A stretch of DNA of 64,000 nucleotides from Georgenia sp. SYP-B2076 (lineage in GTDB: Bacteria; Actinomycetota; Actinomycetes; Actinomycetales; Actinomycetaceae). Under the pieces are notes generated by a model, which worked only from the letters and a program-made list of their open reading frames with translations, was not told the DNA's origin and made no database searches. This document shows, in pieces, positions 8,913 through 38,240 of this stretch. The translations under genes and the position numbers were made by a program. The stretch spans positions 1-64,000 of the forward strand of contig NZ_RXOZ01000007.1 of the NCBI RefSeq assembly GCF_003991205.1. The letters are read 5' to 3'. Within the stretch, counting starts at the first letter, position 1. Each line of letters opens with the position of its first letter.

Positions 8913-8939
8913 ACATCGGCCGCGAGCGCGACGAAATGA
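8913..8939 (-). promoter_or_regulatory. sigma-28-type promoter of the cheA operon
   Basis: On the minus strand TCAT, then exactly 15 bases, then GCCGATGT. The -10-like box lies about 50 bp before the cheA TTG. The same two boxes with the same spacing occur before flbD, flgB, fliC and flgN. The spacing and -10 sequence match the known sigma-28 (FliA) consensus TAAA-N15-GCCGATAA, apart from the -35. The remaining bases of the cheA-csrA gap (8865-9134) hold no gene that I can support. Confidence 0.75.
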
Positions 8940-9134
8940 GCGATCGCCTGTACCAGCGTGACTGGACGTGCACAAGTGGTAGGGGTGGCGTGTCATCACC
9001 GCAACCCTGCGGCGAATGATGTGCTCCGAGTAGAAACCTCGGTCATAGCCTGAGGGAAGTACTCCGGAGGAGGCGGCGCGGACCCGAACGTGTCAGTGGG
9101 GCGGCGGGCCGCGCGGTGTCGGTCGGCTGCGGTG

Positions 9135-9380
9135 TCAGCCGGCGGGCGTGTCGCGGGGTGCGGTGAGCGCGCGCAGGGCGGCTACGGCGGCGTCGTCGGC
9201 CGCGCTAGCCTCGCGGTTGGCCTCCTCGACCGCCCGCCGGACCTCCGCCCGGTTGACGGTGACGCTGCGCGGCGCGGCGATGCCGAGGCGCACGGTGTCG
9301 TTGCGGACCTCGACAACGGTCAGGACGATGTCCTCACCGATGACGATCTGCTCGCCCACGCGTCGACTCAGCACCAGCAC
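9135..9380 (-). CDS. csrA: carbon storage / translational regulator CsrA
   Basis: 81 residues. The first 60 are textbook CsrA (MLVLSRRVGEQIVIGEDI, VRLGIAAPRSVTVNRAEV), an RNA-binding dimer that blocks ribosome access at GGA motifs. The C-terminal tail of about 20 Ala-rich residues is longer than in many homologues. It is the last gene of the long flbD-to-csrA export/motor operon, 10 bp after the FlhF-like gene. Its known antagonist FliW is encoded at the other end of the same island, and several flagellar leaders here carry GGA-loop hairpins, so a role in flagellar translation control is likely. Confidence 0.96.
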   Translation of the reverse strand: MLVLSRRVGEQIVIGEDIVLTVVEVRNDTVRLGIAAPRSVTVNRAEVRRAVEEANREASAADDAAVAALRALTAPRDTPAG

Positions 9381-9390
9381 GCCGACGACA

Positions 9391-10656
9391 CTACCGGGCG
9401 GGCGGGGGCCCGGACGCCGGTGAACCGCCGGCCGGGCGGGCGCGGGCCTCGTCGAGGAGGCACGCCCACACGATCCCGGTGGCCGGGAGCCCGTCCAGCC
9501 AGCCCACGGGCACGCCGAGGTCGAGGAGCGCCCCGGGGTGGCGCGCCTGCCAGGCCCGCTGCCCCGCGAGGGCGTCGACCCGGCCCGCCGCGAGCGTCGC
9601 CAGCTGCTCGGCGAGGTCGCCGGGCGAGCGCCGGGCGTCGACGGCGGCCCATACCTGGTCCGGGTCGAGGGCGGCGACCAGGCTCTCCGCCAGGCGCCGC
9701 TCGCCGCGGCTGGTGCCTACGCCGACGGCGACGAGCAGCGCCGTCCCCGCGCTCGCGCTCTCCTCCCGGAGGCGGGCGGCGCGCCGCGGGCTCGTCAGGC
9801 GCACGCCGGCGCCCGGCATGGTGGCCTCCGCGCCCGCGAGGACCAGCTGGAAGGGGTGCTCGCGCTCGCGCACGAGCATCTGGGCGCAGGTCTCGAGCAC
9901 CTCGTCGGCCTCGCCGACGACGACCACCACCTTGCCCGGGCGCAGGGCCGGGGCGAGCGGCCGCGGCAGGCGGTCGGCCAGGGCCAGGAGGGCCGCGCTC
10001 ACGTCCGCGGTGGCCGGCACCAGCCTGCCGGGCACGCCGAGGTCGCGCAGCAGCGCGGGCGCGGACGTCCGCGAGCGGTCGGCGCGGCCAGGCGCCCCCG
10101 GGGCCGTGGCGGGCTCAAACGCCGCGACGCCACCGCCCGGCCCGGTGGAACCCGAGACGGCCGCAGACGCGGCGGCCGTGCCCGTCTCCTCAGCTTGCGC
10201 GGGCTGAGGTGTCGGGCTCCCGGCCGAGCCGGGCGTGGGCGCCGAGGCCGCGCTGGGGGTGAGTGGCACCCAGCTCGGCGCGCCGACGCCGTCGCCGCTC
10301 TCGGCCGCCGCCAGGAGCGCCGCCAGGCCGGCCACCCCCGCAGGGCCGGCCACGCCCGCAGGGCGGTCGGCGCCGCCCGGGGGCAGCGCGCCCGCGGGAC
10401 GCCCCACGCCGGCGCCCGGGAGGCGCACGGAGTCGCCCGACGCCGTGCCCGCGCGACCGGCTGCGCCCGGCGAGGCGCCGTCGTCGTCCGCCGCCAGCCC
10501 GGGCACGTCCACGGTGACCTCGTAGTGGGACCGGGCGAACGGGCCGAGGCCGCGGCGCACCCGCTCGGCCCGGACCACCCGGCCGCCGAGCTCGCGGGCG
10601 CGCTCGAGCAGCGGGTCGAGCTCGTCCCCGTCAAGCAGCAATTGCGTTTCCGACAC
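9391..10656 (-). CDS. FlhF-like protein with a degenerate SRP-type GTPase domain
   Basis: 421 residues, GTG start overlapping the flhA end by 26 bp. It lies directly after flhA, where flhF is normally found. A short N-terminal domain and a Pro/Ala/Gly-rich linker precede a C-terminal domain that aligns by eye with the NG domain of FlhF: GKVVVVVGEADEVLETCAQML stands where FlhF has a VGPTGVGKTTT P-loop, and ALLDLGVPVGWL resembles the end of the FlhF fold. The GKT/S nucleotide-binding residues are missing, so GTP hydrolysis is unlikely. FlhF places or assembles flagella; here it may be a structural relic of that role. The family assignment is an inference from position and this alignment. Confidence 0.6.
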   Translation of the reverse strand: MSETQLLLDGDELDPLLERARELGGRVVRAERVRRGLGPFARSHYEVTVDVPGLAADDDGASPGAAGRAGTASGDSVRLPGAGVGRPAGALPPGGADRPAGVAGPAGVAGLAALLAAAESGDGVGAPSWVPLTPSAASAPTPGSAGSPTPQPAQAEETGTAAASAAVSGSTGPGGGVAAFEPATAPGAPGRADRSRTSAPALLRDLGVPGRLVPATADVSAALLALADRLPRPLAPALRPGKVVVVVGEADEVLETCAQMLVREREHPFQLVLAGAEATMPGAGVRLTSPRRAARLREESASAGTALLVAVGVGTSRGERRLAESLVAALDPDQVWAAVDARRSPGDLAEQLATLAAGRVDALAGQRAWQARHPGALLDLGVPVGWLDGLPATGIVWACLLDEARARPAGGSPASGPPPAR

Positions 10657-12685
10657 CCACGACCCCGACCGTATCGATCGTCAGCGTGGTCCCGGCGACC
10701 TCGCTGTAGGAGAGCACCGGCAGCCGCGGCACGGCCAGCGCCACGAGGCGGCGCAGCGCCGGGCGGATCGCCGGGGCGCACACCAGCACCACCTGCTTGC
10801 CGCTCGCCTCCGCCGCCGTGACCTGCGTGTTCACCGACGCGAGCAGCTGCTCGACCCGGTCCTGCGGGAGGGAGAGCTGGGTGCCCTGCTCGCCGGCCCG
10901 CAGGCTCTCGAGGAGCATCTGCTCGGTGGCCGGGTCGATGGTGAGCACGCGCAGCACGCCGTCGGCCGCGTTGCGGTCCACGATGGTGTCCCCCAGCGCC
11001 ACCCGCGTCGCCTCCACCAGCCCCTCCGGCTCGGTGGAGACCTTCGCGCGCAGCGTGAGGGCCTCGTAGATGCGGGCGAGGTCGAGGACCGGGACCTGCT
11101 CGGCGAGCAGGCCCTGCAGGACCCGCTGGACCTCCCCGAGGGTGAGCAGGGCGGGCACGAGCTCCTCGACCACGGAGGGGTTCGTCTGCTTGAGCCCCTC
11201 GTTGAGCACGCGCACGTCCTCCCGGCCGAGCAGCCGCGGGGCGTGCGCGCTGACGAGCGAGGACAGGTGCGTGATGATCACCGAGGTCCGGTCCACCACG
11301 GTGGCCCCGGCCATCTCGGCGCTGTGGCGCAGCTCGGCGGGGATCCACTTGCCCGGCAGGCCGAAGACGGGCTCGTTGACGAGCGTGCCGGGCAGGTTCT
11401 CCAGCCCGTCGCCGAGGGCGAGCATCCGGCCCGACGGCGCCTGCCCGCGGGCTACCTCGACGCCGGACATGCGCACCACGTAGGTCGCGGTGGGCAGGTC
11501 GACGGAGTCGCGGGTGCGCACCGGCGGGAGGACGAAGCCCATCTCGAGCGCCGTCTTGCGGCGCAGCGCCCGAACACGGGCGAGGAGGTCCTGGTCGGCG
11601 GAGCCGCCCACGAGGTCGACGAGGTCGGGCGCGAGGAGGATCTCCAGCGCGTGGACGCGCATCTGCTCCAGGAGCTGCTCGGTGGTCTCGGTCGCCGGCT
11701 GCAGGGCGTTCTCGGCCGGCGGCGCGGCGTCCTGCTCGGCCTGGGCGTCGGACTTGCTCACCCGCTGCGCGAGGAGCAGCAGCAGGGCGCCGACCACCAT
11801 GAACGGCAGCTTGGGGATCCCCGGGATGATCGCCATGGCGACGGCGGCCCCGCCGGAGATCGCCAGCGCGTTCTTCGACTGCATGAGCTGGGTGGAGGCG
11901 GCCGAGCCCATGTCCGACTCCGCCGTCGCCCGGGTGACGACCAGGCCGGTCGCGACGGACATGAGCAGCGCCGGGATCTGGGTGACCAGGCCGTCGCCGA
12001 CGGTGAGGATCGCGTAGGTCTCGATCGACTCCGCGGCGGACATCTTGTGGGTGACCATGCCGATGATGAAGCCACCGACGAGGTTGATGATCGTGATGAT
12101 GATGCCGGCGATGGCGTCGCCCTTGACGAACTTCGACGCGCCGTCCATGGCGCCGTGGAAGTCGGCCTCGGCGGCCACGTCGGCGCGCCGCTGGCGCGCC
12201 TGGTGCTCGTCGATGAGTCCGGCGTTGAGGTCGGCGTCGATGGCCATCTGCTTGCCGGGCATGGCGTCGAGGGTGAAGCGGGCGCTGACCTCGGCCGCGC
12301 GGCCGGCGCCGTTGGTGATGACGGCGAACTGGATGATGACGAGGATCAGGAAGATCACGAGGCCGATGACGAGGGAGCCGCCGACGACGAAGTGGCCGAA
12401 CGCGTTGATGACCTCCCCGGCGTACCCGTCGCGCAGCACCAGGCGGGTCGAGGCGACGTTCAGGCCGAGGCGGAACAGGGTCGCGATGAGCACCAGCGAG
12501 GGGAAGATCGAGAAGTCCAGCGGGCGCTTGATGTACATGGTCGTGAGCAGCACCAGCACCGAGAAGGTGATGTTCACGGCGATGAGGACGTCGAGGAGCG
12601 GCGCGGGCATCGGCACCACGAGCAGCATCACGATGCCGACCACGCCGATGGGCGCGCCGACCCGGGAGAACGTGCCGTTCTTCAT
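10631..12685 (-). CDS. flhA: flagellar export-gate protein FlhA
   Basis: 684 residues, the usual length. About eight transmembrane helices occupy the first 330 residues, with the family segments [22 protein letters not shown] and [28 protein letters not shown]. The soluble C-terminal domain (from about residue 345) forms the nonameric docking ring for chaperone-substrate complexes. The ATG overlaps the flhB stop by 4 bases. The frame is open further upstream only as antisense-like reading of flhB. Confidence 0.97.
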
Positions 12686-13782
12686 GAGCGGTCCTTTCTG
12701 GGCTGCGGGACCCGGTGCGTGCCGGCGGCGCTGCCGCGCCGGCGCAGGGACATGACGAACGCGAGGACCCGGGCGACGGCCTCGTACAGGTTTTCGGGCA
12801 CTTCCTGACCGATGTCGCACGCCGCATGCAGCGTACGGGCCAGGCCGATGTCCTGGACGACGGCGACGTGGTGCTGGCCCGCCCGCTCGCGGATCCGCGC
12901 GGCCACGTGCCCCTGCCCCTTGGCCACCACGCGCGGGGCGCCCTCCCCCGGCTGGTAGCGCAGGGCGACGGCGATGTGGGTGGGGTTGACGATGACGACG
13001 TCGGCGTCCGCGACGGCCGCCATCATGCGGTTGCGGCTCATGGCCAGCTGCCTGGAGCGGATGGCGCCCTTGATCTCCGGGTTGCCCTCGGAGGACTTGT
13101 TCTCCTCCTTGACCTCCTGCTTGGACATCCGGGTCTGCTTGCGGTTGCGGCGCATGACGACGACGACGTCCGCGACGGCGAGCGCGAGGCCCGCGACGAC
13201 GGCCCAGATGATCAGGGCGTTCATCCGGGACTGGACCTCGCCGACGAGCTGGGCGACGGAGACCTGCCCCGAGGTGATCACCAGGGGGACCATCCCGGCG
13301 ATGGCGAGGTAGAGCACGGTCCCCACGACGGCGGTCTTGAGCGCCGCCTTGGCGCCCTGCCACCAGGCCTGGAGGCCGAAGACCCGCTTGATGCCCTTGA
13401 CCAGGTTGAAGTTGGTGAACTTCGGCTTGAGGCGCTTCATGGAGGGATGCACCCCGCCCTGCGCGGCCGAGCCGATGATCGCGGCGATCGCGGCGACGGC
13501 CAGGACCGGGGTGAGGGTGGGCAGCAGGGAGTCGAACCCGTCGGTGAGGGCCTGGACCGCCGTCGCCGTCTCGGGGGCCTCGACCGCGCTGGCGACCATG
13601 GCGAGCTGCCCGCGGGCGGCCTCCGCGCCCGCGGAGATGACCGCCGGCAGGGCCAGCGCGACGGCGGCCACGCCCAGCCAGGCCGAGAGGTCCTGGGAGC
13701 GGCCGAGCCCGCCGTCGGCGCGGACCTTCTTCATCCGCTGCGGCGTGGCCTTCTCGGTCTTCTCACCCGCCGAGGAGCTCAT
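12682..13782 (-). CDS. flhB: flagellar export switch protein FlhB
   Basis: 366 residues. The N-terminus ([18 protein letters not shown]) and four membrane helices are typical. The cytoplasmic domain contains the self-cleavage motif NPTH, with cleavage expected between Asn266 and Pro267; this event switches export from rod/hook to filament proteins. It overlaps fliR by 4 bases and flhA by 4 bases, within the fliO-P-Q-R-flhB-flhA export-gate block. Confidence 0.97.
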
Positions 13783-14525: not shown

Positions 14526-14526
14526 C

Positions 14527-16351: not shown

Positions 16352-17055
16352 TACCCGAGGTTCTCGGTGCCGGGGACGATCTCCGTGATCCGCACGGCGT
16401 ACTCGTCGTCGACCACGACCACCTCACCGCGGGCGACGAGCCGCCCGTTGACCATGACGTCCGCGGGGCTGCCGGCGGAGCGGTCGAGCTCGAGGACGGA
16501 GCCCGGCGTGAGCTCCAGGACGTCGCGCACGGGCAGGCGGGTGCGCCCGATCTCGGTGGTCAGGGTCATCTCGACGTCGTAGAGCACGCGCATGGCCCCG
16601 CTGGGCAGCGGCGTGGCGGACTCCGAGGGGTAGCTCGCGGAGGTGGCGGCCCCCTTCTCGCGGATGCCGAACCAGGCCTGGACGGCGCCGTCGGCCTCGA
16701 GGGCGAGCACGGCGATGCCGGGGCCGGTGAGGACCTCGGCCGCGGGCCGGAGCTCGGCGGTGCCCAGCACGCCGGCCCCGAGGGTGTGCGCGGCGGCCTC
16801 CAGGGCGGGGCGCAGCGCCTCGGCGAGGGACAGGTTGCCGGCGCCGGCCATCGCGTCGGCCACGGCCTGCTGGGCGACGACGACGAGCTCGGCGCTGGTC
16901 TGGCCGACGAAGCTGGCGACCACGGCGGTCGCGTCGGCGCCGGGGCGCTCGCCGTCGCGCGCCGGGCGGGGCACGAGGGCGACCGGGGAGGGCAGCAGGC
17001 GGGCGAGCTCCTCCGCCGCGCGCAGGTCGCGGCTGGTGGTGGCGATGGGGTTCAT
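16351..17055 (-). CDS. fliN: flagellar switch protein FliN with a FliY-like N-terminal region
   Basis: 234 residues. The last 85 form a SpoA/FliN domain (VLYDVEMTLTTEIGRTRLPVRDVLELTPGSVLELD, then DVMVNGRLVARGEVVVVDDEYAVRITEI), the C-ring subunit that binds FliM and FliH. Simple FliN proteins are about 100-140 residues; the extra N-terminal 140 resemble the CheC-like part of FliY, but where the phosphatase signature ExxN would lie I see ExxA (ALEAAAHTLG), so it is probably not a phosphatase. It overlaps fliM and adjoins fliO. Confidence 0.9.
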   Translation of the reverse strand: MNPIATTSRDLRAAEELARLLPSPVALVPRPARDGERPGADATAVVASFVGQTSAELVVVAQQAVADAMAGAGNLSLAEALRPALEAAAHTLGAGVLGTAELRPAAEVLTGPGIAVLALEADGAVQAWFGIREKGAATSASYPSESATPLPSGAMRVLYDVEMTLTTEIGRTRLPVRDVLELTPGSVLELDRSAGSPADVMVNGRLVARGEVVVVDDEYAVRITEIVPGTENLG

Positions 17056-17966
17056 GAGCTCTCCTTGACGTGGACGATCATGCCGGCGAGGCGGGAGCCC
17101 TGGGCCCCTGGGGCAGCCTGACCGAGCACCCGGTCCCCGACCACCACGTCGAGCGGCCGGGAGGCGGGGTGGTGGAGCGTGAGGACGTCGCCCACGCGCA
17201 GCTGGACGACCTCGCGGGGGTGGACGGTGATGGGGCGGAAGCGCACGGCGACGTCGACCGGGACCCGCTGGACGGCGACCTCGAGGATGCGGCTCTGCCG
17301 CTGCTCCTCGGCGATGTCCTCGCGGCTGCGCAGGTCCAGGTGCTCGCCGGCGCGCATGGCGGCGACGAGCCCCTCGGCGGGCACCATGACGGTGGCCGGG
17401 ACCTCATCGTCGTCGACCCGGAGCACGAGCCGCGCGATGATCACCGGCGTCGACGCCTCCGCCGCCTGGACGAACTCGGGCGTGTACTGGATGTTCTTGA
17501 ACTCCGCCTCGAGCGCCGTGATCCCGGCGAAGGAGTAGTTCAGGTCCCCCAGGGTGCGGCGCAGGAGCTCGCGGATGAGCTGCTGCTCGATCTCGGTGAG
17601 CTCGCGCGTGGGCACGGCGCCCGGGGTGCCGGGGCCGCCAAGCATGTGGTCGATCCACACCAGGGCGGAGTCCAGCGGGAACTGCACCACGCCGCGCCGG
17701 CCGGGCTCGACCGAGAACAGCACCATAGTGGTGGTCGTGGGCAGGGACGCGACGTACTCGTCGTAGGAGCGCATCTCCACGCCGGTGACGGACGCGGAGA
17801 CGGAGACCCGCAGCCGCGCGACGAGCTGGTTGGCCCAGTGCCGGGAGAAGGTCTCGAACGCCATCTCGAGCAGCCGGGCGTGCTCGCGCGCGAGCGTCAT
17901 GGGTCGCCGGAAGTCGTAGGCCACCGGCGCGCGGGTGGCGCCGGGCACGCTCGAGGAGACCGTCAC
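17052..17966 (-). CDS. fliM: flagellar motor switch protein FliM
   Basis: 304 residues, with the central CheC-like domain (YDEYVASLPTTTTMVLFSVEP, LVWIDHMLGGPG) and C-terminal SpoA domain. FliM is the C-ring protein that binds CheY-P and sets rotation. The GTG start has AGGAG immediately upstream, unusually close. The classical N-terminal CheY-binding peptide (LSQxEID) is not evident in this reading, so the CheY-docking site may differ or the start may lie elsewhere. Confidence 0.92.
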   Translation of the reverse strand: MTVSSSVPGATRAPVAYDFRRPMTLAREHARLLEMAFETFSRHWANQLVARLRVSVSASVTGVEMRSYDEYVASLPTTTTMVLFSVEPGRRGVVQFPLDSALVWIDHMLGGPGTPGAVPTRELTEIEQQLIRELLRRTLGDLNYSFAGITALEAEFKNIQYTPEFVQAAEASTPVIIARLVLRVDDDEVPATVMVPAEGLVAAMRAGEHLDLRSREDIAEEQRQSRILEVAVQRVPVDVAVRFRPITVHPREVVQLRVGDVLTLHHPASRPLDVVVGDRVLGQAAPGAQGSRLAGMIVHVKESS

Positions 17967-18027
17967 TCCTGGCCAATCGGCCGGGCGGCGGTCTAGTTGA
18001 GGGATAACGGAGGGGGAAGTTCCCCTC

Positions 18028-18531: not shown

Positions 18532-18564
18532 CAGGCCACCTCCAGATCGTCGCTCTCGTCCACG

Positions 18565-20186: not shown

Positions 20187-20480
20187 CTACTCGCCCCGGG
20201 GACGCGTCGGGAGGGGGACGATCACGTTGTCACTGGTGTTGTCGCTGGCGTCGCGCAGGCGGTGGACGTGCTCGTCCGAGCCGGACATCTGCAGCGAGCG
20301 CGCGACGATGCTGGCGCGGTGGTCCTGAACCATCGAGACGATCTCGTCCAGCGACTCGTTCACGATGTAGCGGGTGCCGTCGAGCAGCACCAGGATCGTG
20401 TCCGGCGTGCACTCGATCCGCTCGATCAAGTCAGGGTTGATCGCGAACGGCTGGCCCGTCAGGCGTCTCACGATGATCAC
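20187..20480 (-). CDS. flbD: flagellar protein FlbD (SwrD-type)
   Basis: 97 residues from the GTG giving MIIVRRLTGQPFAINPDLIERIECTPDTILVLLDGTRYIVNE, the usual start and core of the short FlbD/SwrD family, which increases stator function in Bacillus. A reading 23 residues longer exists, but its duplicated SWTGP comes from translating the regulatory leader. AGGATGG lies about 10 bases before the GTG. It is the first gene of the motor/export operon. The C-terminal 35 residues are unconserved. Confidence 0.88.
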   Translation of the reverse strand: MIIVRRLTGQPFAINPDLIERIECTPDTILVLLDGTRYIVNESLDEIVSMVQDHRASIVARSLQMSGSDEHVHRLRDASDNTSDNVIVPLPTRPRGE

Positions 20481-20502
20481 GGTCGTTCCATCCTGTGTCT
20501 TC

Positions 20503-20547: not shown

Positions 20548-20555
20548 ACCCTTTC

Positions 20556-20582
20556 TGATCGGCCACATGCGGCGGGGAATGA
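20556..20582 (-). promoter_or_regulatory. sigma-28-type promoter of the flbD-mot-fli-flh operon
   Basis: On the minus strand TCAT, 15 bases, GCCGATCA. It matches the boxes and spacing found before cheA, flgB, fliC and flgN. It lies about 75 bp before the flbD start. The rest of the interval from flbD to the next gene (20481-20844) holds only the leader hairpins and a terminator-like stem. Confidence 0.75.
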
Positions 20583-20786
20583 GGGATCGGAGCTGCGTGG
20601 TCGCGCGACGCCGCGCCGGACCGTCGGCGCGGGGGCGTGCGGGTGGAGGGCGGATTTGGTATCGCCTCATGGTGCTGACAGGTCAAGTCCCGACGAGGTG
20701 CCGCGGGATGAGGCGAACGGTGAGGAATCGCAGGCATATGACCGTCATTTCCTCACCGCAACATGAGACGACGACGGCGCAGCGAA

Positions 20787-20844: not shown

Positions 20845-21393
20845 CTAGCGGCGGGACCACCAGCGCGTGGCGACGGGCTCGACCTCACGCTGCTGCTCCC
20901 CCTGCTGGGCGGCGAGCACGACGAGCGTCCCCGTCAGCACCGGGACCGCCCACTGCAGCGCCTTGAGCTGCTTCTGCGCGGCGCTGAGCTTGGTGGACGC
21001 GCCGGGGGTCGGCTCCGTCGCACCCAGTCCGCCCTCGTCCGCCTTCTTCGCCACCTTCGTGCCCAGCATCCCGCTGTAGGCGGTCAGACCCGCGGCGAGA
21101 ACGGTGAGCCCAGCCTTGACCACCGTGTTCGCCCCGGCCTCCGGCTGGGCCATCAACCGCTCCTTGTTGCCGGCGAGCAGGCCCAGGCTGCCGATGACAT
21201 GGCTGCCGACGGCGGCGGCGTTGACCGGGGCCCACATGCCCCAGCCCGTGGAGGCGAGCGTGAGCCGCTCCTTGGGGTCGGCCGCGTGGGATGCCGCGCC
21301 GTTGAGGCCGATCGCCCCCATGAGGGAACCGCCGAACCACGCTCCCAGGCCGAGATCGTGCAGGCTCCGCACAAACGTATTGCGTTCAGACAT
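20845..21393 (-). CDS. membrane protein of unknown function
   Basis: 182 residues starting MSERNTFVRSLHDLGLGAW; AAGGAGGCC stands at the right distance before this ATG, so a longer upstream reading is rejected. About four hydrophobic segments are seen (about 12-30, 52-75, 86-108 and 145-165). The sequence resembles unnamed actinobacterial membrane proteins; I do not recognise a named family. It stands alone between the flbD promoter region and another small membrane gene, inside the flagellar island but without visible flagellar features. Confidence 0.75.
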   Translation of the reverse strand: MSERNTFVRSLHDLGLGAWFGGSLMGAIGLNGAASHAADPKERLTLASTGWGMWAPVNAAAVGSHVIGSLGLLAGNKERLMAQPEAGANTVVKAGLTVLAAGLTAYSGMLGTKVAKKADEGGLGATEPTPGASTKLSAAQKQLKALQWAVPVLTGTLVVLAAQQGEQQREVEPVATRWWSRR

Positions 21394-21427
21394 GAGGCCT
21401 CCTTGCGACACGGACAACGGACGTGCC

Positions 21428-21479
21428 GCCCGCGGTGGTCGCCGGCGACACATGTAGTCTTGCCCGCCCGCGGTGGTCG
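21428..21479. repeat. 14-bp direct repeat in an intergenic gap
   Basis: GCCCGCGGTGGTCG occurs twice, 38 bp apart start to start, within the 211-bp gap 21394-21604. No gene is supported there. It may be operator-like or a trace of duplication; nothing else distinguishes it. Confidence 0.7.
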
Positions 21480-21604
21480 TGTCGCGTCAGGACTGCGCTG
21501 ACCTCCCGCCCTCGCACATGAGGATCGCCCGGCTCCAAGCGCTGGGTGCGGGGCGATGCGTCGCCGCGGCGCTGCCCACACGTGGGCCGGGGAACGCCTT
21601 CCCA

Positions 21605-21802
21605 TTACGGCACGCGCCGACGGCGTAACCCCCGCACGATGAGGACCACCCCCACGACGGCGACGACCGGCCCCACCACCGCCCACGTCGTCACGCCCGT
21701 CATGGCGCTCCCAGCCAGGTAGCCGAGCCCCTGCAAGGTCCAGACGAGGCCGACCGCGAAGACCACCACACCGACGGCAACCTGCACGGGGCTGCGCTTC
21801 AT
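21605..21802 (-). CDS. small two-helix membrane protein, unknown function
   Basis: 65 residues beginning MKRSPVQVAVGVVVFAVG, with a GGAGGG ribosome-binding site upstream. Two membrane helices (about 7-28 and 37-56) are followed by a positively charged tail (RGLRRRRVP), which suggests the C-terminus is cytoplasmic. Similar tiny membrane proteins are common in actinobacteria. The function is unknown. Confidence 0.7.
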   Translation of the reverse strand: MKRSPVQVAVGVVVFAVGLVWTLQGLGYLAGSAMTGVTTWAVVGPVVAVVGVVLIVRGLRRRRVP

Positions 21803-21905
21803 GCTCCGGCCCTCCTGAGAGACCTCCCAATCCTGAGTGGCCCACCGCCCGCCCACAAGGGGCTGTCGAGGCGCCGGTCCCGCCACGCTTCTCCAGGCGT
21901 CAAAG

Positions 21906-21970
21906 CCGGCGCGCGGCGTCGTGCTACCCGGCGCGCGGCGTCGTGCTACCGGGCGCGCGGCGCCGTGCTG
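21906..21970. repeat. three tandem copies of a 22-bp unit upstream of the photolyase remnant
   Basis: The unit CCGGCGCGCGGCGTCGTGCT repeats with a period of about 22 bp; the first two copies are identical and the third has diverged. It lies in the gap between the small membrane gene and the broken photolyase gene, about 60 bp before the latter's start. Confidence 0.85.
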
Positions 21971-22035
21971 TCTCCGCGCCCCCCGGCCGCGATGGCGGCG
22001 TGCCCGCACGCCGGAAGTCCCCCAGGATGGCACCC

Positions 22036-23143
22036 ATGACCGCGTTGCTGTGGTTGCGCCGTGACCTCCGCCTGCACGACCTGCCGGCGCTGCTCGCAGC
22101 GCACGAGGCGGGCGGCGACGTCCTGCCCGTGTTCGTCGCCGACCCGACGCTGCTGGGCTCGGCCGGCCCGGTACGGCCCGCGTACCTGCACGCCGCCCTG
22201 GCGGCCGCGCAGGAGTCGTACGACGGCGCGATCGTCATCCGCGCGGGCCGCCCAGAAGCGGTGATCCCGGCGCTGGCGCGAGAGGTCGCCGCCACGAGCG
22301 TGCACGTCAACAGGGAGACGACGCCGTACGGCCGACGCCGGGACCGGCGCGTCGAGGGGGCCCTGGGCGACGTGCCGCTCGTGACCACCGGCACGCCCTA
22401 CGCCCCCGGCCCCGGCGTCGTCCGCAAGGGGGACGGCAGGCCCTTCCAGGTGTTCACCCCCTTCTCGCGCGCCTGGCTCGAGCACGGGTGGCACTCCCCC
22501 GCGCCAGTCCTGACGGGCCTTCGCCTGCAGCAGGGGGTGTGTCAGAACCCCTGCCCGGGGAAGGCGACGACCGTCCGTTCGCCGTGGCGCCCAGTGGGGA
22601 GGCGGCCGCGCACGCCCGTTGGGAGAAGTTCCTCGACATCAACCCGGAGGATTACGGCCGCGACCGGGACCGGCCAGACCTGAAAAGCACCTCCCAGATG
22701 TCCGTCCACCTCAAGTACGGCACGATCCATCCGCGCACGATGCTGGCCGACGTCGCCGCACACCCGGCCGGCCAGTCAGAGGGCGCGCGCCGGTTCGTTG
22801 CGGAGCTGTGTTGGCGCGAGTTCTACGCGGACGTGCTGCGGCACCGGCCAAACTCCGCCTGGGGCGACCTGCGTACGGACCTGCGGGAGATGGCCTACGA
22901 GGCCCCGGGGGGCGCCGCGGCCGGGCACGTGCGCGCGTGGGAGCAGGGCCCGGACGGGGTTTCCGTTCGTCGACGCCGGGATGCGCCAGTTCCTCGTCGA
23001 AGGGTGGGTGCACAACCGGGTCCGCATGGTCGTGGCGAGCTTCCTCGTCAAGGACCTGCACATCTGGCGGCCGCACGGCGGATCGTCGACCACGGCACGG
23101 AGCGGGCGGAGGCTCGCGGCGCTATGAAGCTGCGCGGATGTGA
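22036..23143 (+). pseudogene. phr: deoxyribodipyrimidine photolyase remnant, frameshifted and internally deleted
   Basis: The N-terminus reads as a good photolyase/cryptochrome (TALLWLRRDLRLHDLPAL, then the alpha/beta antenna domain). The frame shifts near 22515-22535, continues coherently ([31 protein letters not shown]), then shifts back at the GGGCCCGG run near 22950 ([39 protein letters not shown]). Right after this a recognisable photolyase C-terminal end follows ([11 protein letters not shown], then RRYEAAR in another frame), so the roughly 100-residue FAD-binding core that normally lies between, including WQW and the AGxGxDA-type segment, is missing. The protein cannot be functional. 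Sequencing error could explain the two frameshifts but not the deletion. Confidence 0.85.
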
Positions 23144-23202
23144 GTGGTGAGGCGGCCCACCGTCGAGCTTACCGGCCCCGTCTGCGTTGTGCTCAAACAA
23201 CA

Positions 23203-25015: not shown

Positions 25016-25024
25016 GATCGCTCC

Positions 25025-32559: not shown

Positions 32560-32960
32560 CAGCTCTTCCCGATCTGCAGGGCCGCGGTGTAGGTCTCCTT
32601 GGCGCGGTCCACCACGGCCGCACTGGCCTGGTAGCCGCGCTGGGCCATGATCAGCTGCGTCATCTGGCTGGCCATGTCGATGTCCGGGTAGCGCACGTAG
32701 CCGTCGGCGTCCGCGAGCGGGTTGCTGGGCTCGTGCACGAGGCGGCCCTCGGCGTCGCCGAGCTCGATCCCGGCGACCTCGACGCCGCCCTCGTCGCCGT
32801 AGTCCATGGCCTGCGCGACGACGTAGCGGGCCTGGAACACCGGGTCGGTGGTGGCGGAGGCGTTGTTCATGTTGGCGAGGTTGTCGCTGACCGCGTCGAG
32901 CCACTTGCGGTGGACGGTCATGCCGGTGCTCGCGATGCCGATCGCGCCGAAGGTGGTCAT
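32559..32960 (-). CDS. flgC: proximal rod protein FlgC
   Basis: 133 residues with the rod signature at the N-terminus (FGAIGIASTGMTVHRKWLDAVSDNLANMNN) and the C-terminal YPDIDMASQMTQLIMAQRGYQASAAVVDRAKE. Standard length for FlgC. One-base overlaps with flgB and fliE. Confidence 0.95.
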   Translation of the reverse strand: MTTFGAIGIASTGMTVHRKWLDAVSDNLANMNNASATTDPVFQARYVVAQAMDYGDEGGVEVAGIELGDAEGRLVHEPSNPLADADGYVRYPDIDMASQMTQLIMAQRGYQASAAVVDRAKETYTAALQIGKS

Positions 32961-33301
32961 CAGTTCGTCCTCAGCGCGGTGCGGATGGAGGTGAAGGAGC
33001 CGTCGATGGAGCGGGTGGCGACCTGGTAGCGCAGGTTGGTGTCGATGTTCGACAGCGTCTCGGTGTCGAGGTTGACGTTGTTGCCGTCGGTGCGGGTGGG
33101 CTCGAGCGAGCGGTCCACGCGGGCGGTGACCGCGCCGCTGCCGCCGGCCACGGCGTCCGCGAGGGCGTCTTCGAAGGAGACCCGGCCGGCGAGGAAGCCG
33201 GGGGTCTGGACGTTCGCGATGTTGTCGGCGATGACGCGCTGGCGCAGCGCGAGCGCGTCGAGCGCGCTCTTCATCGCCACCGTGCTCACGGAGTCGAACA
33301 T
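32960..33301 (-). CDS. flgB: proximal rod protein FlgB
   Basis: 113 residues starting MFDSVSTVAMKSALDALALRQRVIADNIANVQTPGF, the usual FlgB beginning. A TTG seven codons upstream would add residues but has no better ribosome-binding site. First gene of the large rod/hook/export operon, about 80 bp downstream of a sigma-28-type promoter and directly after two GGA-loop hairpins. Confidence 0.93.
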   Translation of the reverse strand: MFDSVSTVAMKSALDALALRQRVIADNIANVQTPGFLAGRVSFEDALADAVAGGSGAVTARVDRSLEPTRTDGNNVNLDTETLSNIDTNLRYQVATRSIDGSFTSIRTALRTN

Positions 33302-33337
33302 GCCGGGTTGGGCCCCATCCAACTAGCGGGTGTGTTC

Positions 33338-33375
33338 GGCCGGTCCGTGGCCTGCTACGTGAGCGATCCGTGCTC
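33338..33375 (-). promoter_or_regulatory. two ACGGA-loop hairpins in the flgB leader
   Basis: As minus-strand RNA, GAGC-ACGGAUC-GCUC is followed by GGCC-ACGGACC-GGCC. Both are 4-bp stems with a seven-base loop starting ACGGA; the GGA triplets are 23 bases apart. A further GGA (UUGGAUGG) occurs just before the start codon. The first hairpin begins at the expected 5' end of the transcript. The arrangement parallels the flbD leader, with different stem sequences. Confidence 0.65.
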
Positions 33376-33383
33376 GTCAGTCC

Positions 33384-33410
33384 TCATCGGCAGGGTGTTG
33401 GCGCAGGTGA
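33384..33410 (-). promoter_or_regulatory. sigma-28-type promoter of the flgB operon
   Basis: On the minus strand TCAC, 15 bases, GCCGATGA. Same boxes and spacing as before cheA, flbD, fliC and flgN. It would drive flgB through flgE. Confidence 0.78.
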
Positions 33411-33462
33411 GAGATCGATGAGGGGGAAATCCCATCGATACTCAACCGTGATTATTGGGGGC

Positions 33463-33801
33463 TCAGCCGGCCATGTCGACGTAGACGGGGCGGGCGGGAC
33501 CGTTGGCGCGCATGGCCTGGACGGCGCGCGCGTGCCGCCGGCTCAGGCGGGCGGCCTCGGTGACCTGCCGGGCTACCTCCATCTGACGCGCGAGGAGGGT
33601 CTCCGCGCGGGTGCGAAGCTCGGCCGGGAGCGGGCCGAGGTCGGTCGGGGCCTGCCAGGGGGTGGTGCGGGTGGCGAGGTGGTCGGCGTTCAGGCTGGCC
33701 TCCGCCTCAGCGACGTCGAGCTCGAGCTCGGTGAGGGCGGCGGCCCAGCGCGCGTGGAAGCCGTTGGTCTCCTCGGGCGACGGCACGGCGTCAGGCGACA
33801 C
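33463..33801 (-). CDS. small helical flagellar protein, possible FliT-like chaperone
   Basis: 112 residues from a GTG overlapping the fliS end by 11 bp. The sequence is helical (WAAALTELELDVAEAEASL, LRTRAETLLARQMEVARQVTEAARLSRRHARAVQAM) without membrane segments. In other bacteria the gene after fliD-fliS is often fliT, the FliD chaperone. Size, charge and position fit, but I see no motif that proves it. It is the last gene of the fliD-fliS group. Confidence 0.55.
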   Translation of the reverse strand: MSPDAVPSPEETNGFHARWAAALTELELDVAEAEASLNADHLATRTTPWQAPTDLGPLPAELRTRAETLLARQMEVARQVTEAARLSRRHARAVQAMRANGPARPVYVDMAG

Positions 33802-34258
33802 CGAGGTCGCCCATCGGCTGGTACCCCGTCGGGGCGCTCGCCACCGCGGCGGCGGCCCGGGCACTGGCTACTGAGCCGCCGGTCGCCGTCGTGGCGTTGG
33901 CGGCCTCGTGCCAGGCGTCGCGCAGCGGGATGAGGAGGTCGCGGCAGGCGGTCACGCGCTTGGAGCTGCGGGCGATGTTCGCGCCGACGAGCTCGGAGAG
34001 GAGGTAGCCGTAAAGGTCCATGAGTCCCCGGGCGCCGTCCCAGGCATTCAGGTCTAGGCTGCTGCGGAGCTCGTGGATGATGTCCTGCGCGTGGGTGAGC
34101 TGGGTGTTGGCATCGGCGCGGTCGTCGGCCTCAAGGGCGGCGATGCCGCGGTCCAAGTCGAGGACGAGCCGGTCATAGAGCATCGTCAGCAGCTTCGCGG
34201 GTGACGCGGTGGCGACGGACTCGGTCTTGAAGCGGTTGAGCAGGGCGGCCTGGTTCAT
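33791..34258 (-). CDS. fliS: flagellin chaperone FliS
   Basis: 155 residues with the typical SPAKLLTMLYDRLVLDLDRGIAALE and AQDIIHELRSSLDLNAWDGARGLMDLYGYLLSELVGANI segments. FliS binds the C-terminus of flagellin and prevents premature polymerization. In Bacillus it also frees FliW from flagellin during secretion, which matters for the CsrA-FliW circuit proposed here. A non-conserved Ala-rich tail follows. Confidence 0.95.
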   Translation of the reverse strand: MNQAALLNRFKTESVATASPAKLLTMLYDRLVLDLDRGIAALEADDRADANTQLTHAQDIIHELRSSLDLNAWDGARGLMDLYGYLLSELVGANIARSSKRVTACRDLLIPLRDAWHEAANATTATGGSVASARAAAAVASAPTGYQPMGDLGVA

Positions 34259-34270
34259 GATCTCCCCGGA

Positions 34271-35665
34271 TTACTTGTTCGAGTTCCATGTGGGCAGGCC
34301 GGCGAGTTGGCTGGTGAGCCAGTTCGACTGGGACTGCAGGCCGCTGAGGGTGACCTCTAGGGCCGAATAGGTGCGCTGGAGTCCCTCGCGGCGCTGCGCG
34401 AGGCGACGGTCCCACTCCTCGATCTGCTTGCCGAGGTCGGAGACCATGCCCTCCTGGGACTTGATCTTGAGGGTTAGCGTGCCGTCGATGGAGTCCGACG
34501 AGGACTTGGCCAGGTCCGCAACGCGCTGCGCGATGGCCATGGCCATCTGCTGGGTGCCGTCGGGGTCCGCGGCCATGGCCTTGTCGAACGCGGCCTGGTC
34601 GAAGGTGATGGCGCCGGAGCGGTCCAGCATAATGCCGATCTCCGACGGCGACCGGCCGCTGACGGGCATCGACGCCGCCGAGCGGACGCTGTCCGCCAGG
34701 AATCGGATGGCGGAGTCGCCGGAGAAGAGGCCGCCGGAGACCACACTGCGCCCGTCACTGCCGGTCGATGTCGTCGCCGCGGTGCGAGAGGTGATCTCGG
34801 ACAGGACCACCGAGACCGAGCCGACGACGTCGGAGACGAGCTTGCGCATGCTGTCGTTGTCCGGGGTGACCGTGAGGACCGCGGGTGCGTCCGCCGGTGT
34901 CTTGGCGGCCACGCTGACCGTCACGCCAGGGAGAACGTCGGCGAAGGTGTTGGTCGCACTCGACAGAGTGAGCGGAATCGCGGCGCCGCTGGTGGGCCAC
35001 AGGGTGATCTTGGCATCCGCGGCTTTCACGAGAGGCTTTGTCGCACCCGTTGTCGCGGCACTGTCGACGAGGCGCGCGCCTGCCGTGCCCATCCCGGCGT
35101 ACACCTCGAATGCGTTTGCCTCTCCGGTCACACCCGAGAGCTGAAGCCGGTACTCGGGTTCGGCGCCGCCCACAGCGTTGCCAACCCGGACCGCGACAGC
35201 GCTGATGCCGAGCTCAGCAGCCTTGTTGATGAGCTCGGCCATTTCGGGGGCACTGTTCCCCTTGGCCTCCAGCGTCTTGACGACTCCGCCGCGGACGACC
35301 GTGAGGACCGGGGGTGTCCCCGCTTGGGCGAGATCGACCATAGCGACCTGCCCCTTCGCGAGATTATCGACGCTGAACTCAAGCGTTGACACCGTCGCGC
35401 CGGCGGATACCCTCGCGGTCACCGCGGTCGATGACGAGGCGACCTTGTGGCCGTCCCAGGACTCCACTTTTGTTGCCTTTGCGGCGTTGGTGGCGAGCGA
35501 GGCAACCTTCGTATTGAGCGCCTGAAGTGCGGTGACGAGGATCGAGGCGTTGGCCGACTTGTTCTTTAGCAGTGTCTGCGGAGCAGACTCGATCTGCATG
35601 AGGTTGTTGATCAGCGCTGTGGTGTCCAGCCCGCTGACCAGCCCGTCGATGCCAATGCTTGACAT
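34271..35665 (-). CDS. fliD: filament cap protein FliD
   Basis: 464 residues starting MSSIGIDGLVSGLDTTALINNLMQIESAPQ, with the characteristic C-terminus (EWDRRLAQRREGLQRTYSALEVTLSGLQSQSNWLTSQLAGL). It caps the growing filament. The start is set by homology; a longer reading includes the fliC terminator region. No sigma-28 boxes lie in the 104-bp gap to fliC, so it may be reached by read-through from fliC or from a promoter that I do not recognise. Confidence 0.95.
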   Translation of the reverse strand: MSSIGIDGLVSGLDTTALINNLMQIESAPQTLLKNKSANASILVTALQALNTKVASLATNAAKATKVESWDGHKVASSSTAVTARVSAGATVSTLEFSVDNLAKGQVAMVDLAQAGTPPVLTVVRGGVVKTLEAKGNSAPEMAELINKAAELGISAVAVRVGNAVGGAEPEYRLQLSGVTGEANAFEVYAGMGTAGARLVDSAATTGATKPLVKAADAKITLWPTSGAAIPLTLSSATNTFADVLPGVTVSVAAKTPADAPAVLTVTPDNDSMRKLVSDVVGSVSVVLSEITSRTAATTSTGSDGRSVVSGGLFSGDSAIRFLADSVRSAASMPVSGRSPSEIGIMLDRSGAITFDQAAFDKAMAADPDGTQQMAMAIAQRVADLAKSSSDSIDGTLTLKIKSQEGMVSDLGKQIEEWDRRLAQRREGLQRTYSALEVTLSGLQSQSNWLTSQLAGLPTWNSNK

Positions 35666-35673
35666 CTCGTCCG

Positions 35674-35684
35674 CCTTCCGTGGG
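35674..35684 (-). promoter_or_regulatory. fliD ribosome-binding region sharing an 11-mer with the fliC leader
   Basis: CCCACGGAAGG occurs on the minus strand shortly before the fliD ATG and serves as its Shine-Dalgarno region. The identical 11-mer forms the loop and inner stem of the GGA hairpin in the fliC leader. It would place a CsrA-type ACGGA site directly over the fliD ribosome-binding site. The stem here would be only 2 bp, so structure is weak. Confidence 0.5.
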
Positions 35685-35698
35685 TCATGTGCCGGTAC

Positions 35699-35733
35699 GG
35701 CCGGCGGTGAGCGAGTCCCGCTCACCGCCGGCC
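35699..35733 (-). terminator. hairpin terminator between fliC and fliD
   Basis: GGCCGGCGGTGAGC and GCTCACCGCCGGCC form a perfect 14-bp stem with a seven-base loop, 37 bp after the fliC stop. There is no T tract, so it may stop only part of the transcripts or stabilize the fliC 3' end, which would give much more fliC than fliD mRNA. Confidence 0.85.
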
Positions 35734-35769
35734 GCGGTCATTCTGGTTGCTGGGCTCAGCCAGCGAGAA

Positions 35770-36948
35770 TCACTGAAGGAGCTGGAGCACGCCCTGGGGG
35801 ATCTGGTTCGCCTGCGCGAGCATCGCGGTGCCGGCCTGGGACAGGATCTGCGAACGGGTGAAATTCGTCATCTCCTGAGCCATGTCGGTGTCGCGGATGC
35901 GGGACTCCGAGGCGGACAGGTTCTCGATCGAGACGTTGATGTTCTTGACCGTGTGCTCGAGCCGGTTCTGGTAGGCGCCGAGGTCTGCGCGGGCGGTCGA
36001 GATCTTCCCGATCTGCGCATCGATCATCTTGATCGACGCCTGGGCGTTAATTGCGCTGTCGAACTTGAGGCCGCCGGTAACGGCGGCACCCGCCACACCC
36101 GCGGCGAGTCCAGTGCCACCGGGGGTCGTGTTGTCAGCGGTAGCGAGGGTACGGCCGTCGAGCGCGGTCACAACGATGTCCGTGCCAGCACCGTTTGCGT
36201 CCTTCTTGACGGAAACCGAGAAGTGCTCCGCAAACGCCGCATCCTTGCGGAGCGCGTCCGCAAGACCCTCGACACTGGTGAAGGCGCCCGGAGCACCGAG
36301 GTTGCCAGTTGTAACTGTCGTCTTCTCACCACCGCCATTGGTAGTGAATGAGAAGGCGCCGCCCACCGCCGCGATGCTCGCGACCGCAAAGGTGGTGCCA
36401 GAGGTGGTCAGGTCCCCGCCTGTGAGGGTGTTAGCCACCGCCTTGACATTCGCGGCTCCGAGGTTGACGGCGATCTGACTGTTGGTGTCGCCATCGGCTC
36501 CGACCTGAAACTTCAAGGTGCCAGCCGTACCGTCCAGCAGCTTAGTGCCGTTGAAGTTAGTGGACTGCCCGATACGGTCGAGCTCAGCGACGAGGTTGTC
36601 AGACTCGGTCTTGATGTTGGTGCGTGCCGCGGGGTTGTTCGAGTCGTTGGCCGCCTGAACACCGAGGTCGCGCAGACGCTGCAGGATCGAGTGCACCTCG
36701 GTGAGCGCACCCTCAGCGGTTTGGACGACAGAGATACCATCCTGGGCGTTGCGGGCAGCGACCTTGAGGCCACCGACCTGCGAGCGCAGGCCCTCAGATA
36801 TGGCCAGACCGGCGGCATCGTCCGCGGCCCGGTTGATGCGGAACCCGCTGGACAGCTTCTCCAGCGACTTGCCGAGGTCGTTCTGGGTGTTGGAGAGGTT
36901 GCGGTACGCGTTGGTCGCCGCAATGTTCTGGTTGATCGAGAGACCCAT
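35770..36948 (-). CDS. fliC: flagellin
   Basis: 392 residues. The conserved N-terminus (MGLSINQNIAATNAYRNLSNTQNDLGKSLEKLSSGFRINRAADDAAGLAIS) and C-terminus (DTDMAQEMTNFTRSQILSQAGTAMLAQANQIPQGVLQLL) enclose a short variable centre of about 130 residues. It is the only flagellin gene in the window. Its leader has sigma-28 boxes, a GGA-loop hairpin and an AGGAAGAAG ribosome-binding site. Confidence 0.97.
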   Translation of the reverse strand: MGLSINQNIAATNAYRNLSNTQNDLGKSLEKLSSGFRINRAADDAAGLAISEGLRSQVGGLKVAARNAQDGISVVQTAEGALTEVHSILQRLRDLGVQAANDSNNPAARTNIKTESDNLVAELDRIGQSTNFNGTKLLDGTAGTLKFQVGADGDTNSQIAVNLGAANVKAVANTLTGGDLTTSGTTFAVASIAAVGGAFSFTTNGGGEKTTVTTGNLGAPGAFTSVEGLADALRKDAAFAEHFSVSVKKDANGAGTDIVVTALDGRTLATADNTTPGGTGLAAGVAGAAVTGGLKFDSAINAQASIKMIDAQIGKISTARADLGAYQNRLEHTVKNINVSIENLSASESRIRDTDMAQEMTNFTRSQILSQAGTAMLAQANQIPQGVLQLLQ

Positions 36949-36956
36949 GGTGTCTT

Positions 36957-37000
36957 CTTCTTCCTGAAGGCTGATCGAGAAACCGCCCTTCCGTGGGCAG
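36957..37000 (-). promoter_or_regulatory. CsrA-type GGA hairpin and Shine-Dalgarno in the flagellin leader
   Basis: As minus-strand RNA, CUGCCC-ACGGAA-GGGCGG forms a 6-bp stem (one U-G pair) with the loop ACGGAA at 36983-37000. A second GGA lies 28 bases downstream in the Shine-Dalgarno AGGAAGAAG. The hairpin begins a few bases after the expected transcription start. Bacillus subtilis hag has a similar pair: one CsrA site in an upstream hairpin and one over the ribosome-binding site. Confidence 0.72.
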
Positions 37001-37009
37001 TCACCCGTT

Positions 37010-37036
37010 ACATCGGCCGTAGACCTTCAGGTGTGA
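37010..37036 (-). promoter_or_regulatory. sigma-28-type promoter of fliC
   Basis: On the minus strand TCAC, 15 bases, GCCGATGT. Flagellin is the classic sigma-28 target, so this site anchors the interpretation of the other four copies of the motif. Confidence 0.82.
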
Positions 37037-37056
37037 GGAATTGGAGGAAGACTCTC

Positions 37057-37905
37057 TCAGACCGCTTCCAACTCCACTGATGTGCGGGCTGTAGCTACCT
37101 GGGTTGCCGAGGTGCGGGAGATGGTGCCGGTGGCGCGCTCGGCGACCGCCGCGTAGTACGCCTGCCGTCGGCGCTCGGCAACTCCAGGAACCGGGGGTGC
37201 CATCGGCACCAGCTCAGGGTCGAGCGAAGTATTGATGGCGTCCTTTAGCATCGACAGCGCCTGCGTGCGCAGCTGGCTGATCCGCGACTGGGTCACGCCC
37301 ATCTCGGCGGCCAGATCGACCACCGGCCGGTCGCGGAAGAAGAGCTCCTCGACAACATGGCGCAGCCGCTCGGGCAGCTCGACTACCGCGGCTGTGAGGT
37401 AGTGCAGTTTTTCGCCGACGAGCAGGCGCTCCTCTGGGCCAAGGCCGGAGGCCGACAGGTTTTCCGCGGCGGCGGCGCCATCACCGTCGATGCTGAGGAC
37501 GCGCCGCTCGACATCACCCTGGGTGGCCTCGACCTCGGCGACGTCGACCCCCATGGCTTCGGCAAGCTCCTCGCGGGAAGGCTTGCGCCCCAGTGCTGCG
37601 GTGAGCTGGTCGCTGAGCTCGGTGAGCTGGCGCGCGCGATGACGGGCCCCGCGGGACGCCCAGTCCATCCCCCGCAGCTCGTCCACGATGGCGCCGCGCA
37701 CCCGGACTGTGGCATAACGCCCAAAAGGCACGCCAAGGTCGGGATTGAACGCCCGAGCGGCCTGGACCAGCGCGAGCGACCCGGCGGCCGCGAGCTCGTC
37801 GCGCTGGACGTGTGCGGGGACGCGTCGGATCATCTCGGATACGTGGTACCCGACGAGGGGCAAGTTTTGGACGATGAGCTCGTCCTGCTCGCGGCGACCG
37901 ATCAC
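37057..37905 (-). CDS. fliA: RNA polymerase sigma-28 factor FliA/WhiG family
   Basis: 282 residues. Region 2 (NLPLVGYHVSEMIRRVPAHV, AARAFNPDLGVPFGRYATVRVRGAIVDELRGMDW) and region 4 with the helix-turn-helix VVDLAAEMGVTQSRISQLRTQALSML are clear; region 3 lies between. About 40 extra C-terminal residues follow. It starts with GTG. It should recognise the TCAY-N15-GCCGAT boxes found in this island. No such box precedes fliA itself, so it is probably expressed earlier than its targets. Whether an FlgM anti-sigma exists is not visible here. Confidence 0.93.
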   Translation of the reverse strand: MIGRREQDELIVQNLPLVGYHVSEMIRRVPAHVQRDELAAAGSLALVQAARAFNPDLGVPFGRYATVRVRGAIVDELRGMDWASRGARHRARQLTELSDQLTAALGRKPSREELAEAMGVDVAEVEATQGDVERRVLSIDGDGAAAAENLSASGLGPEERLLVGEKLHYLTAAVVELPERLRHVVEELFFRDRPVVDLAAEMGVTQSRISQLRTQALSMLKDAINTSLDPELVPMAPPVPGVAERRRQAYYAAVAERATGTISRTSATQVATARTSVELEAV

Positions 37906-37932
37906 GGGCCTGTCTCCAGTCGGGACATCCCT

Positions 37933-38014
37933 ATCTCGGCAGACCGAGATCAGGACGGTGTACGGGGAAGTTGATAAATAACAGATAGAACACGTTCATC
38001 AACAAGCGATGAAC
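37933..38014. promoter_or_regulatory. two palindromes and an AT-rich patch in the fliA-flgN divergent region
   Basis: ATCTCGG-CAGA-CCGAGAT (37933-37950) lies in the fliA leader, and GTTCATC-AACAAGC-GATGAAC (37994-38014) beyond it, separated by an AT-rich patch (GATAAATAACAGATAG) that is exceptional in this GC-rich DNA. The patch is the likely fliA promoter area and the palindromes possible operators or leader structures. The rest of the 378-bp gap holds the flgN promoter and no supported gene. Confidence 0.6.
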
Positions 38015-38213
38015 ACTCTGTCGTCAGGAATTCCGCCGCCCACCGGGTGCGTCATTCTTAGACAACCGGACGGTCTCACACCGCAATGTCGGGAGCAAGC
38101 ATTTCCGAAGGTGGTGTGATCGACGTCACAGCGCAAACTTCTAAGACCGCGTCAGAGACGCTTCAGCAAGCGGCCAAGGCGCCCCCGGAGCGTGAAGCAC
38201 AGCCACGATGTCC

Positions 38214-38240
38214 TCACACAACGCCCGCCGCGGCCGATCG
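38214..38240 (+). promoter_or_regulatory. sigma-28-type promoter of the flgN-flgK-flgL-fliW operon
   Basis: TCAC, 15 bases, GCCGATCG on the plus strand, 44 bp before the flgN ATG. It is the only copy of the motif on the plus strand that I found before a gene and precedes the only plus-strand flagellar operon. The leader has just one GGA, in the ribosome-binding site ACGGAGG. Confidence 0.76.

Follow-up and report, generated by a model that had tools for sequence, protein, structure and literature searches.

Probable FliA-type CTCA-N16-GCCGAT promoters before early and late flagellar operons of Georgenia, and a CRP-type palindrome before fliA

The flagellar island of Georgenia sp. SYP-B2076, which occupies about 33 kb of a 64,000-nucleotide stretch (contig NZ_RXOZ01000007.1, positions 1 to 64,000; hereafter the window), raises the question of which sigma factor reads its operons, in how many tiers, and under what control. 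The reading favored here, at a probability of about 0.8 and from sequence evidence, is that the sigma factor FliA recognizes one promoter, CTCA-N16-GCCGAT, in a single tier over rod, motor, filament, and chemotaxis genes, and that a CRP-like regulator would act on fliA, and FliA in turn on the operons. An earlier note on this DNA had predicted a simple sigma-28 regulon from five copies of TCAY-N15-GCCGAT; its promoter reading is supported, whereas a further site at fliM and the CRP-type site at fliA had escaped it.

Six exact matches to CTCA-N16-GCCGAT occur in the window, where 0.19 are expected and none of 100 shuffles reaches six, and each precedes a flagellar or chemotaxis gene in the correct orientation. 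Five lie with their genes on the minus strand: at 8915..8940 before cheA (6471..8864), with 50 nucleotides (nt) from the -10 box to the called start at 8864; at 17976..18001 between fliL and fliM (17052..17966); at 20558..20583 before flbD (20187..20480); at 33386..33411 before flgB (32960..33301); and at 37012..37037 before the flagellin gene fliC (35770..36948). The sixth lies on the plus strand, at 38213..38238, before flgN (38284..38766). Gene names rest on Pfam, with the rod protein gene flgB (Pfam Flg_bb_rod) named by its position and by tblastn to relatives, and gene starts, like the genic and intergenic calls used below, come from our own codon-usage gene caller. As judged from gene spacing, the flgB promoter would serve flgB-flgC-fliE-fliF-fliG-fliH-fliI-fliJ-NlpC/P60-fliK-flgD-flgE, and the flbD promoter would serve flbD-motA-motB-fliL, the unit probably extending on through fliM-fliN-fliO-fliP-fliQ-fliR-flhB-flhA-unknown-csrA; the flgN promoter heads flgN-flgK-flgL-fliW.

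All six sites share CTCA at -35, a spacing of 16, and the sigma-28-type GCCGAT at -10, whereas TAAA, the -35 of the enterobacterial and WhiG promoters, is found at none of them. The five copies described before, at cheA, flbD, flgB, fliC, and flgN, are all present with the sequence given for them, at 8915-8939, 20558-20582, 33386-33410, and 37012-37036 on the minus strand and 38214-38238 on the plus strand, the coordinates of the note having two bases too many. Its list omitted a sixth exact match to TCAY-N15-GCCGAT (six in the window against 0.30 expected; 0 of 100 shuffles with at least six), a probable decoy at 32918..32942 on the plus strand, antisense inside flgC and with no C before its TCA. 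The degenerate position had also been misplaced: the base before TCA is C at all five sites in the flank alignment, whereas the base after it is free (A.08, C.31, G.29, T.32 in 72 spacer-16 sites). Since that base is unconserved and the form retains the flgC match, TCAY was set aside as a consensus; the CTCA form drops this match and adds the fliM site, which reads TCAA. As the note had said, the window leaders of fliA, fliD, and csrA hold no exact match. At fliM only 9 nt separate the -10 box from the called GTG start (window 17966-17976), which suggests a nearly leaderless message or a start further downstream.

The position of the motif is kept in other actinobacteria. Leaders were read in fliA-centered loci fetched from named relatives (39 actinobacterial loci used), in 28 genomes for flbD and fliM (two of 30 rows, G103 and G107, being duplicates of G213 and G214), and at 30 places among 35 relative matches for cheA; the test for flgB, fliC, flgN, fliD, and the controls excludes matches that begin beyond residue 60 of the query or lie too close to the end of a locus. 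Exact-type matches are CTCA-N15-17-GCCGA(T/A) up to 300 nt upstream, relaxed ones allow one mismatch in 200-nt leaders, and the counts are not independent, related strains (including three of Georgenia satyanarayanai) being counted separately. On this basis, the motif stands before flbD in 26/28 leaders (28/28 relaxed), before fliM in 22/28 (27/28), and, 76-88 nt before the gene, at flgB in 17/18 by either count; at flgN 7/27 become 21/27, and at fliC 19/25 leaders match when one mismatch is allowed. No exact-type match was found within 300 nt of flgK, flgL, fliW, fliS, flgC, fliF, fliG, or fliI, and the relaxed count gave 1/26 for flgK and 0/18 for fliF, where shuffles would give 0.5-1.3 per gene; fliD has the motif in 3/20 leaders by both counts, and fliA has it in 0/39 by the exact type. 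A blind search for dyads (4-mer, gap, 5-mer) in 126 leaders of flgB, fliC, flgN, flbD, and fliM ranked CTCA-N17-CCGAT first, with 82, against a maximum of 7 in one shuffled set and of 22, for an unrelated dyad, in 83 control leaders of flgK, fliF, and fliA. Each of the twelve best dyads listed is a shifted piece of one motif, whose spacer measures 16 nt at 72 of 84 sites. Conservation in other genera thus upholds both the sigma-28-type -10 box and spacing combined with a -35 other than TAAA and the sharing of this promoter by rod, export, and motor operons with the filament and chemotaxis operons, as had been proposed from the window.

The candidate sigma factor is encoded in the island itself, by fliA (37057..37905, minus strand, divergent from flgN), the product of which passes the Pfam cut-offs for sigma-70 regions 2, 3, and 4 and has FliA proteins as its nearest solved relatives in the PDB. 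Two sigma factors with region 3 were found in the genome; one is FliA, and the other is presumably the primary sigma factor. In region 4, within what we take to be the -35-reading helix, 39/39 actinobacterial loci have Arg following SQ(L/M), where 23/23 readable FliA-like loci of other phyla have His (a stricter pattern gave His in all 18 that it read). The latter derive from 40 non-actinobacterial loci, of which 14 (L159-L172), with a helix that is not FliA-like, were left out and three were unreadable (L139 and L142 matched the wrong place, L157 was cut off). Among solved structures, the helix reads SQLHSQ in 6pmi, presumably the Escherichia coli FliA, and SQLKAK in 1rp3, presumably that of Aquifex; the residue after SQI is His in the sigma factor of 6pfv, which we take to be Streptomyces WhiG, in contrast to the Arg of the flagellar FliA considered here. 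Over whole loci, CTCA-type elements outnumber the TAA(A/G) type by 64 to 1 in the 39 actinobacterial loci, as against 11 to 24 in the 40 others (14 of them not of the FliA type), a split for part of which the G+C contents of 72% and 54%, respectively, account. The change from His to Arg is offered, as a hypothesis, as a candidate cause of the shift of the -35 element from TAAA to CTCA.

The promoter finding adds another example to a design already known, since in Actinoplanes missouriensis Jang et al., in J Bacteriol in 2016, reportedly mapped eleven flagellar starts with CTCA(N15-17)GCCGAA and suggested that a single sigma factor serves every flagellar gene. A pattern of this type (CTCA, spacer 15-17, GCCGA(A/T)) stands before the flagellar units of the window as well, and nearly all of the Actinoplanes-group genomes examined carry CTCA-N17-GCCGA(A/T) at the flbD leader and CTCA-N16-GCCGAT at that of fliM; the window differs in having GCCGAT and a spacing of 16 at all six sites. 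With the enterobacterial sigma-28 system the window shares the -10 box, the spacing, and the sigma family, but it differs in its -35 element and in the inclusion of rod, export, and motor operons; no FlhDC tier, known from the E. coli hierarchy as set out in passages of PMC4183435, is known here, no search aimed at FlhDC having been made. The WhiG system of Streptomyces and Rubrobacter is likewise actinobacterial, of the FliA/WhiG family, and of the GCCGAT type at -10, whereas passages of PMC8325347 give its flagellar consensus with TAAA, GCCGATAA, and describe a search with TAAA as the -35.

As to what would control fliA, the intergenic region between the divergent fliA and flgN contains a perfect TGTGA-N6-TCACA palindrome, TGTGATCGACGTCACA, at 38115..38130, of the form of CRP/GlxR sites in leaders. 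It is the sole perfect copy in the window, with 0.00 expected. The genome (4,284,448 bases) holds six, this one included, and none of the reversed pattern; at four of the five others a called start lies no further than 175 nt away. In 22 fliA leaders of the Georgenia, Actinotalea, and Cellulomonas group, 12 palindromes are perfect and 8 keep 9/10 fixed bases (20/22, or 20/39 overall, the 39 leaders having been split into 22 and 17 after the occurrence of the palindrome was known, along genus lines); the remaining two keep eight bases, in L095 and, at another place, in L110. Perfect palindromes in these 22 loci (400,563 bases) fall within 300 nt before fliA in 12 of 15 cases, and in an alignment of 21 loci with the window (without L110) no conserved blocks of the fliA leader are longer than the two arms of the palindrome. 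The genome holds 12 Crp-type helix-turn-helix matches. A CRP-like protein is the candidate binder, and it would act on fliA as either an activator or a repressor.

It is less probable, though deserving of weight, that the palindrome serves the divergent flgN operon instead, or that it binds another protein of the CRP/FNR family sensing a signal other than cyclic AMP (cAMP). The palindrome does stand between two divergent genes, only the best of the 12 Crp-type matches was checked for a cyclic-nucleotide-binding domain, and the distance to fliA, 174-189 nt for 18 of 20 good sites, is 220-221 nt in L094 and L097 and about 225 nt in the window by projected starts (220-239 nt for these three together with L095). 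Against this, the distance is far steadier to fliA (SD, standard deviation, 2.6 nt) than to the -10 box of flgN (SD 41 nt) in the 13 loci that gave both distances, from which the four at 220-239 nt were excluded, and the best Crp-type protein stands out, with 68.6 bits against 38.3 for the next, a cyclic-nucleotide-binding domain by Pfam, and a place nearest to solved CRP/FNR-family proteins, presumably the actinobacterial CRP and GlxR. A single Guanylate_cyc-family gene is present in the genome.

CRP acts on flhDC in E. coli. As in CRP/GlxR regulons and with E. coli CRP, a gene for a motility regulator here has a site of the TGTGA-N6-TCACA type ahead of it, in a genome with a CRP-like protein; the difference is that the site is at fliA itself; passages of PMC2859248 describe a further action of CRP on E. 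coli motility genes, at the sigma-28 aer promoter. As far as the literature searched shows, the CRP-type palindrome at fliA and the Arg/His split of FliA are new here, no earlier report being present among the literature matches listed, which left most subscription journals uncovered.

Taken together, a FliA holoenzyme would read CTCA-N16-GCCGAT before the cheA, flbD, fliM, flgB, fliC, and flgN units, so that rod, MS-ring, export gate, motor, filament, hook-associated, and chemotaxis units would be transcribed together with no early and late cascade. The fliD-fliS genes would be read through from fliC, and csrA likewise within the flbD unit, because fliD comes after fliC and csrA ends that unit. 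No secretion checkpoint would be expected, because later actinobacterial classes, those that lack FlgF and FlgG, are reported in passages of PMC10746217 to lack the anti-sigma factor FlgM also; the early operons do carry the FliA motif, and the absence of FlgM is taken from the literature on those later classes, with no genome-wide search for FlgM made. Whether the cell swims would then depend on the production of FliA, with a CRP-type regulator, bound to cAMP or to another ligand, setting the transcription of fliA, in the probable order of CRP-like regulator, fliA, and flagellar operons.

Flagellar genes elsewhere are known to have dual promoters, and FliA might read these promoters only as a boost to rod and motor operons that have housekeeping promoters in addition. 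This is quite unlikely: the 76-88 nt before flgB leave space for a second start, but the blind dyad search yielded the one motif in all of its twelve top entries. Still less can be said for the matches being a by-product of high G+C content and codon usage, placed in leaders by luck, an explanation that has hardly any probability: it would suit the 62 genome matches of the TCAY form, the matches of the reversed pattern (10 as against 30 for CTCA-N16-GCCGAT), and the 56 of 108 matches that fall inside called genes in five Georgenia-group genomes, but not the expectation of 0.19 in the window, the similar distance of the motif in leaders across genera, or its near-zero rate upstream of flgK and fliF.

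Several observations nevertheless weigh against the reading of one FliA tier under a CRP-type regulator. The window FliA, a divergent member of the FliA/WhiG type, scores 149.1 bits against a cut-off of 189.6 in the NCBIfam family FliA_WhiG (TIGR02479), although this is still the best family listed. Conservation is uneven, with exact matches in only 13/25 fliC leaders, flgN sites in relatives that are often GTCA or one base off, and the cheA motif at 8/30 places, seven at 53-55 nt before the called start and the eighth at 110 nt; fliD-fliS have no site of their own, and of two chemoreceptor genes outside the island neither has the exact motif, one showing TTCA-N15-GCCGAT well upstream and the other no leader match. 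None of the 17 remaining actinobacterial fliA leaders (the Actinoplanes group, Quadrisphaera, Nocardioides, and others) showed the CRP-type site; they keep six to eight fixed bases, mostly at shuffle level, and the aligned leaders of 21 loci and the window show no convincing -35/-10 core promoter for fliA. An element with 9 of 10 bases of the FliA type precedes fliA in 14/39 leaders. Loci of the Actinotalea/Cellulomonas group (L101-L109, L111-L113, L127) have a CTCAAG...CGA element shortly before the fliA start that is not in the Georgenia leaders, and these sister genera may autoregulate fliA; at the window fliA, a FliA-type promoter was sought in the leader by eye and by the exact pattern, and not found. 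The main text of PMC10746217 names neither Georgenia nor Cellulomonas.

The motif is also far from rare. The earlier note had held that many equal matches at random genome positions would tell against it, and this doubt is partly borne out: TCAY-N15-GCCGAT matches the genome 62 times and its reversed form 5 times (genic and intergenic matches taken together), CTCA-N16-GCCGAT has 30 matches, of which 24 lie outside the island, 2 of them no more than 260 nt ahead of a start, and the genomes of four relatives have 26, 16, 22, and 14 against 4, 10, 8, and 8 reversed. Rarity was therefore rejected as an argument, and because equal matches exist elsewhere the motif reading rests on position and conservation, which still favor it; six of the 30 matches fall within the island (binomial 1.1e-7, the island having been chosen afterwards), and chance alone was rejected as the source by the window expectation, the blind dyad search, and the conservation of leaders.

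The 108 exact matches of the five Georgenia-group genomes comprise, besides those inside called genes, 34 that lie between genes, no more than 260 nt from a called start, and 18 of neither kind. Among the 34, 23 belong to island flagellar or chemotaxis genes by protein sequence, with the cheA, flbD, flgB, and fliC sites each in 5/5 genomes, fliM in 2, and flgN in 1. The other 11, some of which may be chance, include one D-Ala-D-Ala carboxypeptidase gene in the genome of the window (L034, VanY domain by Pfam), the start of which is 28 nt downstream of the motif; secreted subtilase genes in two genomes (L049 and L352, Pfam run on L049), 70 and 83 nt from the motif and with products 67% identical over 426 residues, the remaining leader sequence looking dissimilar; a WhiB-family gene (L317, L347; motif exact, 146 nt upstream) and an unknown protein, each in the same two related genomes; and four singletons. 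Conservation at the WhiB gene says little, because the two leaders are alike throughout.

Some features of the island stand apart from these questions. Non-flagellar open reading frames (ORFs) lie between flbD and flgE (window 20845-23200), one of which, of 215 amino acids, contains an N-terminal photolyase domain alone and is perhaps a broken or split photolyase gene, and a 416-amino-acid ORF between csrA and flhA in the export operon (9391-10641) has no Pfam match. A G+C-rich inverted repeat after fliC and before fliD (35665-35770) is perhaps a partial terminator that would keep fliD below fliC.

In summary, the palindrome at fliA and the shared operon promoter suggest a simple two-step swimming switch. 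A broader statement is only tentative and may well prove too wide: that Georgenia, Actinotalea, and Cellulomonas would have a two-step hierarchy from cAMP-CRP/GlxR to fliA to all flagellar operons with no FlgM checkpoint, that flagellated actinobacteria would have moved from TAAA to CTCA with the His-to-Arg change as candidate, and that the subtilase and the D-Ala-D-Ala carboxypeptidase would belong to the Georgenia regulon. The joint split of His/Arg and TAAA/CTCA suggests the hypothesis that a single residue sets sigma specificity, and the input signal becomes open to test through the palindrome at fliA. In textbooks, flagellar genes exemplify transcription in a staged cascade, and a lineage that would use one sigma factor for early and late parts, apparently without FlgM, would offer a natural test of whether building a flagellum requires such staging.

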